Positions 18,440 through 40,780 of a stretch of DNA of 45,664 bases are shown here, piece by piece (positions within the stretch are counted from its first letter, which is position 1; every line of letters starts with the position of its first letter). Both the position numbers and the translations under genes were made by a program. A model generated the notes under the pieces. That model was not told the origin of the DNA and made no database searches. It saw only the letters and a list, made by a program, of their open reading frames with translations. The stretch covers positions 1 to 45,664 of the forward strand of contig JAMPXC010000026.1 in NCBI GenBank assembly GCA_023701385.1, in the 5' to 3' direction. This DNA is from Pseudobdellovibrio sp. GTDB taxonomy: Bacteria; Bdellovibrionota; Bdellovibrionia; Bdellovibrionales; Bdellovibrionaceae.

Positions 18440-18724
18440 CGTTATCGGCGTTTATTTTTCGACTATGGAAAGACTGTGGAAAAGCGATCAAGACCTAAGC
18501 CGGAAAAAAGGCAAAAAAAAAGGCTCGAAGACCACTCTGAAACATAAACCTCTTTTCGCTAAGTGGGTTTCCATTTAACAACTTTAGGCTTCTCACTACG
18601 AGGTGAGCTTGCACACCATTGTCAGGGACAGATCCCGTATAATAAGCTTGTAAGGTTTATTTTCGATGAGTTTTACGTCAGCGAACCCCCAGCTCTAATA
18701 ATAGCAAAAAACCTAAAAAAGTCC
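18440..18724. other. Non-coding interval between the metalloprotease operon and a small membrane protein gene
   Basis: About 285 bp. It must contain the minus-strand promoter of the metalloprotease operon, and on that strand a run of nine T lies at about 18511-18519. A weak 5-bp inverted repeat (CTCAC/GTGAG) lies near 18594-18609. An open frame from GTG 18563 crosses it on the plus strand but shows no protein-like pattern until about 18725. I see no RNA gene in it. Confidence 0.5.
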
Positions 18725-35744: not shown

Positions 35745-37877
35745 TTATTTTTTTGGCGTATTTAATTTCTGAAATAAGTACGTGTATTCCATACCTAGCA
35801 TAGTCGCATACTCTTTTAAGTTTGCGGCTCTGCCGTGGCCCCCATCGATATTTTCATAATATATCACCGGGTAACCCATTTGTTTAAGACGCGCCACCAT
35901 TTGGCGGGCATGGGCTGGATGAACGCGGTCATCTTTAGTGCTCGTAATAAAGAAAGCTTCTGGGTATTTTACATTCTTTTTAATATTGTGAAGCGGAGAA
36001 TACTTCATTAACACTTTACGATCAGCCGGAACATCAGGGTTACCGTATTCGGCTTGCCAGCTGGCACCTGCTAATAATTTATTAAAACGAATCATGTTTG
36101 CTAGCGGTACTTCACTGACAACAGCGCCATACAAATCAGGTCGCTGGGTTAACATCACACTTGTTAGTAAACCTCCGTTTGATCCACCCATGATTCCCAG
36201 ATGTTGAGGAGAAGTAATTTTTCTTTTAATTAAATCTTCACTGACGGCAATGAAATCATCGAAAGCTTTTTGGCGGTTGGCTCCAAGAGCCGCCTTGTGC
36301 CATAACGGACCATATTCACCACCACCACGAATATTTGCTAACACATAAACATTTCCACGCGATAACCAAACTTTTCCTGGTACGCCTAAATAGTAAGGCG
36401 TCATAGCCGCTTCAAAACCGCCGTAACCGTATTGAAGTACGGGGTTTTTACCGTCGTATTTTAAATTTTTCGAGTGAACAATAAAGTACGGAATTAAAGT
36501 GCCGTCTTTACTTTTTACTTTAAACTGCTGCGAAGTAAAATTTTTCGCATTGAATCGTTCCGGCGAAGCTTGGATAAATTTAAGTTTTAATTTCGCGTCC
36601 TGGGCTGAATCTGTGTAATACACCTGAGTCGGTGTTAAAAAATCTGTGTAACTGAAATAAGTTTTATTCGAATACGGATCAATCGCAAAAATAGACCAGT
36701 TACCATTGTTGTGTGCACTTAACCCATGAACGAATTTGCCAATCACCCAGCGGTTATCGACACGATCAACCGGAATCATCGTGCGTTTAACATCACGTAA
36801 AGCCGCGATCCATAGTTGATCTCTATTTTTTGTTGTGCTTTGTAGAACTTCAGTTTCGCTAGGTAAAAAAACAATTTCTGGGTCTTTAATGTTTTGCAAA
36901 GAGAATAGCGGAAACGATAACAACGTGCCTGGTGGAACTGTTTTGCCATTTACTGTGTAATCAGATTTTACGGTAAATAAAACTTGATCTTTAAAGATTG
37001 TTCTTACTTCGGCATCGTTAGGAATTGGAATTTTGACTAATTTTTGTGTCGCTAAGTCGGCTAAATAGTAAACTTCGTATTCATAGAACGAAATCGATTT
37101 AGAAACGATAAAATGCATTTTATCTTGGTCGGCCACCATCCAGCTGTCGATGCTGACATAGTCTTTGGGTACATCGGCGATAAAAGTGGCCTCTGCTAAT
37201 TTTTGCCCACGTTTAATAAATTTTAAAATTTGAGGGTAACCTGAGTTTGTTAGCTTTTTAGGGTCAGTTGCGTCTGTCCAAAGCAGTGTGTTTGCGTCAT
37301 ACCATTCGAACTGACTTTTCGATTCTGGAAAATGAAAGCCATTTTTAACAAATTCTTTTTTTCCTAAGTCATATTCGCGGGCCGTGATCGCATCTTTTCC
37401 GCCGTTCGATAAAAAGACCAAGCACATACGGTCATTTTTTTTGTAGCAGGTAAGACTTTTCCAAACCCAGTTTTTATTTTCTGCTTTAGCGATCTCATCA
37501 AGGTCAAAAACAACTTCCCAGTTATTTTTATGGGCATTGAAATCAGCAACTGAAATTCTTTTTAACTGGCCGCGCACATGCACTTGGTCTTGCCAATATT
37601 GGTACAGTTGGTTGTCGTGAAAATAGATCGATGGAAGTTTATCTTTGGCTGTTACGACATTTAGAATTTCTGTTTCGATGACTGGAAATAACGGATCAGT
37701 TTTAAGGCGCGCCACAGACAGAACATTTTCTACTTCGGCGAAACTGCGTACTTGTGGCGATTCGATTTCTTCAAGATAACTTAAGTCTTTTGATAACGGA
37801 TCTGATGGTGCGTTTGATTTAAGAGAGCAAGAATTGATTGTAAGAGCACAAAAAAATAAAGCTATGATATTTTTCAT
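35745..37877 (-). CDS. Prolyl oligopeptidase-family serine peptidase (S9A), lipoprotein
   Basis: 710 residues. A short lipoprotein signal peptide ends in TINSC (Cys17). A seven-blade propeller-like N-terminal domain occupies about 60-430, then the alpha/beta-hydrolase domain. The nucleophile is in GIMGGSNGGLLTSV, the Asp in TSTKDDRVHPAHA and the His in NIDGGHGRAA, so the triad is complete. PVLQYGYGGFEAAMTPYY is typical of S9A enzymes. Lipidation puts it on the membrane surface, where it would cut short proline-containing peptides. The ATG is inside a terminator-like hairpin and has no ribosome site. Confidence 0.93.
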   Translation of the reverse strand: MKNIIALFFCALTINSCSLKSNAPSDPLSKDLSYLEEIESPQVRSFAEVENVLSVARLKTDPLFPVIETEILNVVTAKDKLPSIYFHDNQLYQYWQDQVHVRGQLKRISVADFNAHKNNWEVVFDLDEIAKAENKNWVWKSLTCYKKNDRMCLVFLSNGGKDAITAREYDLGKKEFVKNGFHFPESKSQFEWYDANTLLWTDATDPKKLTNSGYPQILKFIKRGQKLAEATFIADVPKDYVSIDSWMVADQDKMHFIVSKSISFYEYEVYYLADLATQKLVKIPIPNDAEVRTIFKDQVLFTVKSDYTVNGKTVPPGTLLSFPLFSLQNIKDPEIVFLPSETEVLQSTTKNRDQLWIAALRDVKRTMIPVDRVDNRWVIGKFVHGLSAHNNGNWSIFAIDPYSNKTYFSYTDFLTPTQVYYTDSAQDAKLKLKFIQASPERFNAKNFTSQQFKVKSKDGTLIPYFIVHSKNLKYDGKNPVLQYGYGGFEAAMTPYYLGVPGKVWLSRGNVYVLANIRGGGEYGPLWHKAALGANRQKAFDDFIAVSEDLIKRKITSPQHLGIMGGSNGGLLTSVMLTQRPDLYGAVVSEVPLANMIRFNKLLAGASWQAEYGNPDVPADRKVLMKYSPLHNIKKNVKYPEAFFITSTKDDRVHPAHARQMVARLKQMGYPVIYYENIDGGHGRAANLKEYATMLGMEYTYLFQKLNTPKK

Positions 37878-37886
37878 AGCTTTATT
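37855..37886 (-). terminator. Terminator-like hairpin overlapping the S9 peptidase start codon
   Basis: Arms AATAAAGCTATGA and TCATAGCTTTATT are perfect 13-bp complements around a 6-nt loop. On the minus strand a U-run follows, so it fits an intrinsic terminator for the nitroreductase gene. The ATG (37877-37875) lies in the first arm and the U-run encodes Phe-Phe of the signal peptide. It may also regulate translation. Confidence 0.72.
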
Positions 37887-37911
37887 TTAAGGATTTAAAT
37901 TTTTAAAACAA
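37884..37911 (-). promoter_or_regulatory. Candidate promoter of the S9 peptidase gene
   Basis: On the minus strand: TTGTTT (37911-37906), 16-bp spacer, TAAAAT (37889-37884). The expected start point falls at about 37877, the first base of the ATG, which would make a leaderless mRNA and explain the missing ribosome site. Confidence 0.4.
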
Positions 37912-37924
37912 TGTCTTATTTGGT

Positions 37925-38575
37925 TTATCTGTAATCAAAAACATCAGACGCCGGAAAGCGTACTTTTTTCGAATGTTGGTACTTATCATCAGCTGCTCTG
38001 TAGCCACAAGCTACAGCGGCAATTGTTTTCCAGCCAGAACCTTCAAGATTTAAAACTTTGTCGTAACCAGCTTGATCAATACCTTCCATTGGAAGAGTGT
38101 CGATTTCCATCATCGCTGCTGTCGTCAAAATTGAACCCATAGCGATGTATGTTTGGCGTTGCGCCCACCATTTGATTGTTTCGAATCTAGGACCTTTTAA
38201 AAGATCTCCTACCATCACGCTTTTAAATTTTTCTAAAGCAGATGGATCAACACCGCGAGATTTAGCTGTTTCAGCCACAAATTTATCAATGTGAGCTTCG
38301 TCTAATTGTTCTTTGTAAGTTAAAACTACAAAGTGAGAAGCTTGAGTGACCGGCGTTTGGCCGTAAGAGGCATCCTGAAGTTTTTGTCTTAACTCAGGAT
38401 TTTGGACAACGATAAATTTCCAAGGCTGTAAACCGTAAGACGAAGCCGATAAACGAAACGACTCAGTTAAGATATTCCAGTCTTGTTCACGGATAACTTT
38501 CGTGGGGTCAAACTTTTTACAAGCGTAACGCCAGTTCAGTTGTTTATGAATAATTTCGTTATCTACCGGTGACAT
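37925..38575 (-). CDS. Nitroreductase-family NAD(P)H oxidoreductase (NfsB-like)
   Basis: 216-residue FMN enzyme of the nitroreductase fold. WRYACKKFDPTKV at the N-terminus, SFRLSASSYGLQPWKFIVVQNPELRQKL (FMN contacts), AALGS-like YIAMGSILTTAAMMEIDTLPMEGID, and the C-terminal VACGYRAADDKYQHSKKVRFP match NfsB/YfkO-type enzymes. It probably reduces quinones or nitro compounds. It starts 3 bp after the downstream-facing neighbour's stop, so both may be co-transcribed. Confidence 0.92.
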   Translation of the reverse strand: MSPVDNEIIHKQLNWRYACKKFDPTKVIREQDWNILTESFRLSASSYGLQPWKFIVVQNPELRQKLQDASYGQTPVTQASHFVVLTYKEQLDEAHIDKFVAETAKSRGVDPSALEKFKSVMVGDLLKGPRFETIKWWAQRQTYIAMGSILTTAAMMEIDTLPMEGIDQAGYDKVLNLEGSGWKTIAAVACGYRAADDKYQHSKKVRFPASDVFDYR

Positions 38576-38577
38576 GA

Positions 38578-39174
38578 TTACTTCACTTCGAATTCAGAAA
38601 ATGCGAAAGCCGATTTAGTAAACATTGATTCTTGATCGCTGTTTGAAGCAGCTACACGCCAGAAGTATTTAACACCAGCTTCTAAGCCTTTCACTTCGAA
38701 TGAAGTTCCTGCAACAAATTTGTCTTCAGCAACATACATTGAACGGTTGTTAAAACCAGCATCTTTTGAAACTTGCACGTGGTAAGTTTTAGCACCTTCA
38801 GAGGCAGCCCACTCAAGTTTCACAGCTTCACCAGAAACTTTAGCTAAAAATTTTGGTGATTCTAATTTTACTTTTGCTGGAACAGCTCTTTTAACTGCAT
38901 CAGTTTGTTTTTCAGGAAAAATAGCTGCTACTTGTTCTTGGCGCTTGTGGCTCCAGTCGTAGTTAGCGCCATAACCAGCTTTTTTACCATGACCAGCTTC
39001 AGCGTGCGCTCCGTGAGCAGCGCCAGCCGTGTGACCTTCAGCTGCGCAATCTTTGCCTGCTTCTTCTTTCGAGCATGAAGCTACAGCGTCAGCTTTGTGT
39101 GCTTCTTCAGCTACTGAATTTAAATTGAAACCTAAAACTAATAAAAATGCCGCTAAGGCTACTAAAATTTTCAT
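38578..39174 (-). CDS. Periplasmic protein with His/Ala-rich segment and fibronectin type III-like domain
   Basis: 198 residues from ATG 39174; GAGGAG about 7 nt upstream fixes this start over a longer frame. The signal peptide is about 24 residues (LLVLGFNLNSVAEE). Residues about 30-65 are rich in His, Ala, Gly and Glu with two Cys (HTAGAAHGAHAEAGHGKK), possibly metal-binding. The C-terminal 95 residues have the fibronectin type III pattern (VKLEWAASEGAKTYHVQVS, GTSFEVKGLEAGVKYFWRVAA). Function unknown; a role in metal handling or surface binding is a guess. Confidence 0.75.
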   Translation of the reverse strand: MKILVALAAFLLVLGFNLNSVAEEAHKADAVASCSKEEAGKDCAAEGHTAGAAHGAHAEAGHGKKAGYGANYDWSHKRQEQVAAIFPEKQTDAVKRAVPAKVKLESPKFLAKVSGEAVKLEWAASEGAKTYHVQVSKDAGFNNRSMYVAEDKFVAGTSFEVKGLEAGVKYFWRVAASNSDQESMFTKSAFAFSEFEVK

Positions 39175-39294
39175 GCGGATCTCCTCAAAAATCGCGATAA
39201 ACAAACAGAATGATTTAATTTAATGCCATTGGGGCTTCGGAGCAAGATTTCCCTAAGCTGATTACATGTTTTTCGGCTGCGCCAAAATAGACTC

Positions 39295-39324
39295 TTGCAT
39301 TTACGAGGTGCCCAATGCTACAAA
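39295..39324 (+). promoter_or_regulatory. Candidate promoter of rnpB
   Basis: TTGCAT (39295-39300), 18-bp spacer, TACAAA (39319-39324). The predicted start at about 39331 agrees with the 5' arm of the RNase P P1 helix. Confidence 0.5.
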
Positions 39325-39331
39325 TCTCAGC

Positions 39332-39745
39332 AAGGTTTTGCAGATGATCGCGTGCGGTGTAAACCGTACGAGGAAAGTCCGAGCTTCGCAGAGCAGCGCC
39401 TGGGGTAACGCCCCTCCATCGTAAGGTGAGGAACAGTGGAACAGAGAGAATGTCCGGGGCATTGAGCCTGATTTCGGGAACGGGAGAAATCGGGGGAGCC
39501 GCTGGAGTGAAAACAGCCAAACTCGTGCGCGAAGCAAGATCAAATAGGGAATCCCACTAGCAATAGTGGTTCTTGGTGGAGATTTCGGTTTCCATACAGA
39601 GAATAAGCTCTGCTCGAGTGAAGATTCCGGGTACGATCGCTTGAGCCCCTCAGTAATGTTGGGCCTAGAGGAATGATTATCGAACTGTGTGGACAATGTG
39701 GGAGAAAACACAGGGAACAGAACTCGGCTTATCGCAAAACCGACC
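39332..39745 (+). ncRNA. rnpB: RNase P RNA (bacterial class A)
   Basis: Catalytic RNA that matures tRNA 5' ends. The conserved 5' block GAGGAAAGTCCGAGCTTCG begins at about 39370. GGGGTAACGCCCC and the purine-rich GGAACAGAGAG follow. The 3' block ACAGAACTCGGCTTAT lies near 39717-39732 and completes P4. The P1 helix can be drawn from GGTTTTGC (39334-39341) and GCAAAACC (39734-39741), which sets the ends and a length of about 410 nt. A T-run at 39750-39756 after P1 may terminate transcription. Apparent open frames antisense to it are spurious. Confidence 0.93.
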
Positions 39746-39757
39746 CATCTTTTTTTC

Positions 39758-40780
39758 TTAAACTTTCTTTTTGCCAAGAACGAAAAGTTCGCGGCCTTCA
39801 CGGCGTGGAAGTGATTTTCTCCAGCGACCCCAGAATAAGAACTGAAAACTGTCTTTAAGTAGTTCGCGGATTTCCCATTCGCTGCTGCCGTAAGGTGGGC
39901 CCGCGCGTTTTAACATCGCAAAAAACACGGCAATCAATTGACCTTCTTCATGAAGAAGTCTGCGCCATAGTTTAACCATTTCTTTTCGGCGTTTAGGGTC
40001 AATCGCGCAAAAGCACGTGTGTTCAATGATCACGTCGAAGGTGCCATTCCAATCGTGCGGCAGAGTGAAAATATCTTGCCGCAGAAAAGTGATATTTTCC
40101 ATGTGGCCGTATAATTTTTTAGCCTGCGCAATAGCGCCCGCCGAAAAATCGACAGCGGTTACAACGTGCCCAGCTTCGGCAAATAGGGCAGCATCATGGC
40201 CAGAACCACAGCCTAAAACAAGAATGCGGCATTTAGGTAATTTTAAACGCGGAAGCATATCTTTAAAGGCAGGAGCAGGTTCACCTAAGTCCCAACCAGG
40301 ATTACCTTCGTTGTAAATATTAGTCCAAAACTGCGAGTCTTCTAAATTTGCATTTTCAAAATAATAATCAGGAGTATCAACTCTGATTCCATTTAACGTG
40401 AAGCTTTCGTCATCGAATTCATCGCAGGCATCAAAAAGTTGTTCTTGCGCTTTTTCAGTTAAACGAAAAGGCGCGTGCGTTGTTGTTAAACCACAGATGC
40501 GGTCAAACGGATCAAGGCTGAATTTTTTAAGATCACATTCAAAGGTAAGCTGCTGTTGCGTTTCAACAAAAACTCTATCACCTTGCGCTACCAGCTTGTG
40601 GCCAAGGAGCGGGTGATCAAAAGCTTCAACGATGAATTTTGTTTTTTCAAACGATGTTTCAAGAGTGAAACTGTTGTTTAAACGAAGATTGCGAAGCAGA
40701 GCCTGTGCGATTTCGCCATCGGGAACTGCCTTTTCATTTTCAGACAATTCGCCGTGTTCGTTAATCGTCAAATAATTCAT
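39758..40780 (-). CDS. TPMT-like SAM-dependent methyltransferase with extra N-terminal domain
   Basis: 340 residues. The C-terminal 210 residues resemble thiopurine-methyltransferase-like enzymes: WTNIYNEGNPGWDLGEPAPAF, then the SAM motif ILVLGCGSGHDAALFAEAGH and VTAVDFSAGAIAQAK, and FDVIIEHTCFCAIDPKRR. The first 120 residues are a separate domain with GHKLVAQGDRVFVETQ and an FDDESFTLNGI segment that I do not recognise. The substrate may be a small thiol or metalloid compound by family analogy only. It is convergent with rnpB; the stop is next to the rnpB T-run. Confidence 0.8.
   Translation of the reverse strand: MNYLTINEHGELSENEKAVPDGEIAQALLRNLRLNNSFTLETSFEKTKFIVEAFDHPLLGHKLVAQGDRVFVETQQQLTFECDLKKFSLDPFDRICGLTTTHAPFRLTEKAQEQLFDACDEFDDESFTLNGIRVDTPDYYFENANLEDSQFWTNIYNEGNPGWDLGEPAPAFKDMLPRLKLPKCRILVLGCGSGHDAALFAEAGHVVTAVDFSAGAIAQAKKLYGHMENITFLRQDIFTLPHDWNGTFDVIIEHTCFCAIDPKRRKEMVKLWRRLLHEEGQLIAVFFAMLKRAGPPYGSSEWEIRELLKDSFQFLFWGRWRKSLPRREGRELFVLGKKKV

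Follow-up and report, generated by a model that had tools for sequence, protein, structure and literature searches.

A hairpin around the start codon of an S9 peptidase gene, with a candidate promoter at its foot, as a possible guard against read-through in Pseudobdellovibrio sp.

An S9 peptidase gene starts inside a perfect 15-bp hairpin, with a promoter-like site at the hairpin foot, in the window (the whole analysed stretch of 45,664 nucleotides from Pseudobdellovibrio sp.). Judged from the sequence, the chances are about even that the hairpin protects the S9 gene against read-through, whereas RNA from the gene's own promoter escapes the stem. Folding revealed the hairpin AAAATAAAGCTATGA-AAAATA-TCATAGCTTTATTTT at 37853-37888 of the minus strand, with the 5' arm at 37888-37874, the loop at 37873-37868 and the 3' arm at 37867-37853. 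The sequence-only reading had described 13 bp with a U-run; the structure is real and longer than claimed. Its minimum free energy is -16.3 kcal/mol (z -6.4 to -6.8), and none of 200 shuffles was equally good. The ATG of the S9 gene (37877-37875) sits in the 5' arm close to the loop, confirming that the start codon lies within the hairpin. As in intrinsic terminators, a T run follows the stem: seven T (37856-37850, minus strand) cover the stem base and the positions beyond it, making a candidate 3' end of the nitroreductase RNA. The run codes for Phe-Phe of the signal peptide (codons 8-9), as had been read, and for the first T of Cys10. The stem has G-C at three of its 15 pairs, the remainder being mostly A-T. 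This is at the low end for terminators of the sister species Bdellovibrio sp. qaytius (G013), where 5/65 have three or fewer, and termination may therefore be inefficient.

The S9 gene (35745-37877, minus strand) encodes a prolyl-oligopeptidase-type protein of 710 residues counted from the ATG at 37877 (PF00326, E 1.9e-45; PF02897, E 1.6e-23), with a lipoprotein signal peptide (MKNIIALFFCALTINSC). Upstream of the lipobox the frame contains no further ATG, GTG or TTG, and the start at 37877 is therefore firm. The 17 nt preceding this ATG contain no Shine-Dalgarno sequence, an absence of little weight since a crude test found a 4-base Shine-Dalgarno sequence in only about 40-48% of the window and G013 genes. 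A nitroreductase gene (37925-38575, minus strand; PF00881, E 4.4e-22) ends 47 nt before the S9 ATG on the same strand and is a possible source of read-through RNA. Another gene (38578-39204, minus strand), for an exported protein with a weak fn3 match (24.8 bits, cut-off 25.0), precedes the nitroreductase gene by 2 nt, probably in one operon with it. Scanning of the nitroreductase-S9 gap yielded no terminator besides the start hairpin. At the gathering score, Rfam matched only two RNAs in the whole window and nothing at the hairpin: RNase P RNA (39332-39747, plus strand; RF00010, 187.6 bits) and 6S RNA (18516-18692, minus strand; RF00013, 65.7 bits). The ORFs at 39215-39801 (minus strand), mostly antisense to the RNase P RNA, are probably not genes.

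The minus strand reads TTGTTT-N16-TAAAAT-AAAGCT-ATGAAAAATATCATAGCTTTATTTTTTTGTGC across this region. The -10-like TAAAAT (37884-37889) lies at the 5' foot of the hairpin, and the -35-like TTGTTT (37906-37911) is placed 16 nt before it. The predicted transcription start, from the position of the -10 only, is the A of the S9 ATG (37877). The site matches the consensus at 8/12 positions with a weak -35 (3/6), too weak to be detected by a simple promoter scan. Comparison nevertheless supports the promoter proposed earlier: its geometry is kept in G013, and S9 orthologs have counterparts at the hairpin foot. Given a -10 placed six bases ahead of the ATG and the absence of a Shine-Dalgarno sequence, the S9 gene's own message would likely be leaderless. 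Folding of the start region gave -18.3 kcal/mol for the read-through RNA vs -2.5 kcal/mol for RNA beginning at the ATG, and the predicted unpaired probability of the AUG in the read-through RNA is 0.00. A start codon paired in this way and a candidate promoter at the 5' foot are both features of a start region of the T4 gene e type.

We propose that read-through RNA from the nitroreductase gene, having both arms, would fold the stem, and the T run would then promote its termination. Read-through RNA that continued past the T run would keep its AUG trapped in the stem. Transcription from the S9 promoter, whose -10-like site lies at the hairpin foot, would begin at or beside the A of the ATG; the resulting RNA would not contain the 5' arm, could not form the stem and would be translated without a leader. 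We infer the two RNA ends, the block on translation and leaderless initiation from sequence and folding.

One close relative of the window genome (G000), namely G013, has the identical gene order and retains the full stem at 71% DNA identity. Two stem positions changed, each from A-U to G-U, and the 3' arm is identical. Codons 4-12 of the S9 gene are all identical between the two genomes, compared with 58% of residue-conserved codons gene-wide. The nitroreductase-S9 gap is 20 nt in G013 vs 47 nt in the window, a 27-nt difference, so that the -35 regions do not align. The pattern TTGNNN-N16-TARAAT is nevertheless found six bases before the ATG in both, as TTGTTT/TAAAAT in the window and TTGAAT/TAGAAT in G013. 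The sister species also keeps the overlap noticed in the window between hairpin, start codon and promoter exit. Among three other g1 genomes (G001, G008 and G009), no comparable hairpin was found at the S9 start; the contig of a fourth, G012, breaks off within the S9 ortholog. In G001 (L005 880-1092), the nitroreductase gene is followed by a small hydrophobic ORF of 70 aa, whose ATG likewise lies in a terminator-like hairpin (AGATGATGGGCTTCAGCCTATCATCT-TTATT).

Strong hairpins touching the ATG were found in 11/18 S9 orthologs of genus g6, probably Bdellovibrio, with sequences unlike that of the window. Their ends fall between about -5 and +5 relative to the start codon; the 3' arm usually contains the Shine-Dalgarno sequence, and a T run is mostly missing. 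The stems fall into several unrelated sequence groups, which MAFFT aligned poorly because of unequal stem lengths; comparison of G051 with G062 shows two pairs in which both bases differ. The g6 orthologs are preceded by genes of several unrelated families and the hairpin is kept regardless, indicating that it belongs to the S9 gene. Across 14 genomes, the promoter-like scores at the foot add up to 101.5 vs 61.5 ± 10.6 for shuffles (0/500 reached the observed value); G052 and G054 have no foot promoter. These promoter-like sites of the S9 orthologs place the predicted transcription start within the 5' arm. For the S9 ortholog of B. bacteriovorus HD100, whose ATG is at about 3,377,471 on the minus strand, the start would be expected near 3,377,494, about 23 nt before the ATG. 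The window hairpin spans -11 to +24 and the g6 hairpins about -34 to +1, with no stem sequence in common, and the comparison thus does not support common descent. Since the g6 hairpin is linked to S9, mostly has no U-run and hides the ribosome site, the theme shared by the window and g6 would be a block on translation of read-through RNA. The g6 stem would cover the ribosome site, whereas that of the window and G013 would cover the AUG itself and add a T run.

A simpler explanation is that the hairpin is an ordinary intrinsic terminator serving the nitroreductase operon, overlapping S9 because the gap is short, with the hiding of the start irrelevant. We consider this possible but unlikely. 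It agrees with the T7 run after the stem, 36 nt past the nitroreductase stop, with the hairpin being the sole terminator in the gap, and with another terminator-like hairpin after the same nitroreductase gene in G001. In a first survey of about 1,500 genes, moreover, start-touching hairpins were found almost only behind co-directional genes (20/312, gaps of 15-130 nt) and never behind divergent genes (0/496), several of the g6 stretches having been picked around the S9 gene. A plain terminator does not, however, account for a g6 hairpin that accompanies S9 behind unrelated genes, covers the Shine-Dalgarno sequence and is mostly not followed by a T run, and the window stem is poor in G-C. The earlier label "nitroreductase terminator" therefore covers only part of the picture.

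A genome-wide class of start hairpins was not supported by a held-out scan on stretches of eight genomes (3/173 vs 0/210, p 0.09), and the three hits resemble mis-called starts or ordinary terminators. The claim is therefore restricted to particular genes. Enrichment of a -10 at the foot among all hits (p 2.5e-4) depends largely on the recurring S9 and ATTKEEV orthologs. The E. coli control showed start-touching hairpins at 0/51 genes by annotation and 1/47 by ORF calling; the ymfT gene of prophage e14 (L203 3024-3224) has a 15-bp hairpin across its start region. A G013 helicase gene with TATAAT at the foot and its start inside a hairpin was rejected, as the layout is not conserved in G000, where the upstream sequence differs. 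A conserved start hairpin (L209 2339-2390, minus strand) was found in G000 and G013 at the gene for a 287-aa exported protein (G000:C57), with the FliA-like -10 GACGATAA at its foot; the FliA motif of attack-phase promoters in HD100 has been reported as TTAAG-N16-CCGATA (PMC3627812). A family of small exported proteins in g6 (L177 9630-10040, minus strand; orthologs L179-L202) shows the layout of a start hairpin with a foot promoter in most species. Its conserved layout, TTGAAG ... TGTAAACTGGTCTCC-loop-GGAGACCAG-ATG, may represent either an RNA hairpin or an operator.

Less probable than a plain terminator is a regulated operon switch, in which S9 is co-transcribed with the nitroreductase gene and a signal such as heat, a protein or upstream ribosomes opens the hairpin. 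The co-directional genes, the short gap and the strong start-hiding stem of the orthologs are consistent with it. The recurrent promoter-like site at the foot, on the other hand, means that the main RNA would be without the 5' arm; the hairpin has no Rfam match, and the stem sequence is kept only as far as the sister species. A DNA palindrome bound by a regulator at the promoter is improbable. The dyad does span the -10 to the start, and the 137-aa ATTKEEV-type family shows rather little variation in its arms CTGGTCTCC/GGAGACCAG, but the S9 arms vary by species group with pairing kept, which fits RNA pairing better. A chance meeting of an A-rich start region with T-rich signal-peptide codons, suggested by the mostly A-T stem and by the T-rich codons that signal peptides yield, is very improbable given the shuffles, the stem kept in G013 and the rarity with which shuffled gene starts attain the hairpin's score.

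In compact genomes, adjacent genes must be kept from leaking into one another. Under the read-through guard that we favour, a hairpin with a -10 at its foot would let a gene take only its own messages and would spare a separate terminator and promoter region. A fuller version is tentative and rather doubtful: a 40-base stretch would combine promoter exit, terminator of the upstream gene, AUG lock for read-through RNA and start of a leaderless signal-peptide gene, and start hairpins with a promoter at the foot would have evolved repeatedly in Bdellovibrio relatives at selected chromosomal genes. No precedent for a chromosomal read-through guard was found in the open-access literature, and the merging of these four functions in one stretch would be new.

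Compared with known systems, the S9 start shares individual features with several of them. Leaderless mRNAs number 119 in Zymomonas mobilis (PMC7566282). The S9 gene resembles them in its predicted start at the A of the ATG and in having no Shine-Dalgarno sequence, while its leaderless status, unlike theirs, is predicted only. Similar to intrinsic terminators, the S9 hairpin has an A-rich flank and a T run shortly past a stop codon, but it is poor in G-C pairs and encloses the start codon of the following gene. IS10/Tn10 is protected from outside transcription by a hairpin unique to read-through RNA, which blocks translation. The proposed S9 hairpin would likewise form only in read-through RNA; S9, however, is an ordinary cell gene, with no mobile element found or implied. 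In the lysozyme gene e of phage T4, long early RNAs fold the Shine-Dalgarno sequence or AUG into a stem, whereas late promoters located around its 5' strand give translatable RNA; start hairpins also occur at soc, 49 and I-TevI (PMC3014915). As in gene e, the S9 start would be paired in upstream RNA and the putative promoter lies at the 5' strand of the stem. In contrast to gene e, S9 is a chromosomal bacterial gene with a candidate sigma70-type promoter, its hairpin also has a T run, and its own RNA is predicted to be leaderless. The precedents cited here come from phages and mobile elements, and a conserved example at an ordinary gene of a bacterium would widen the principle.
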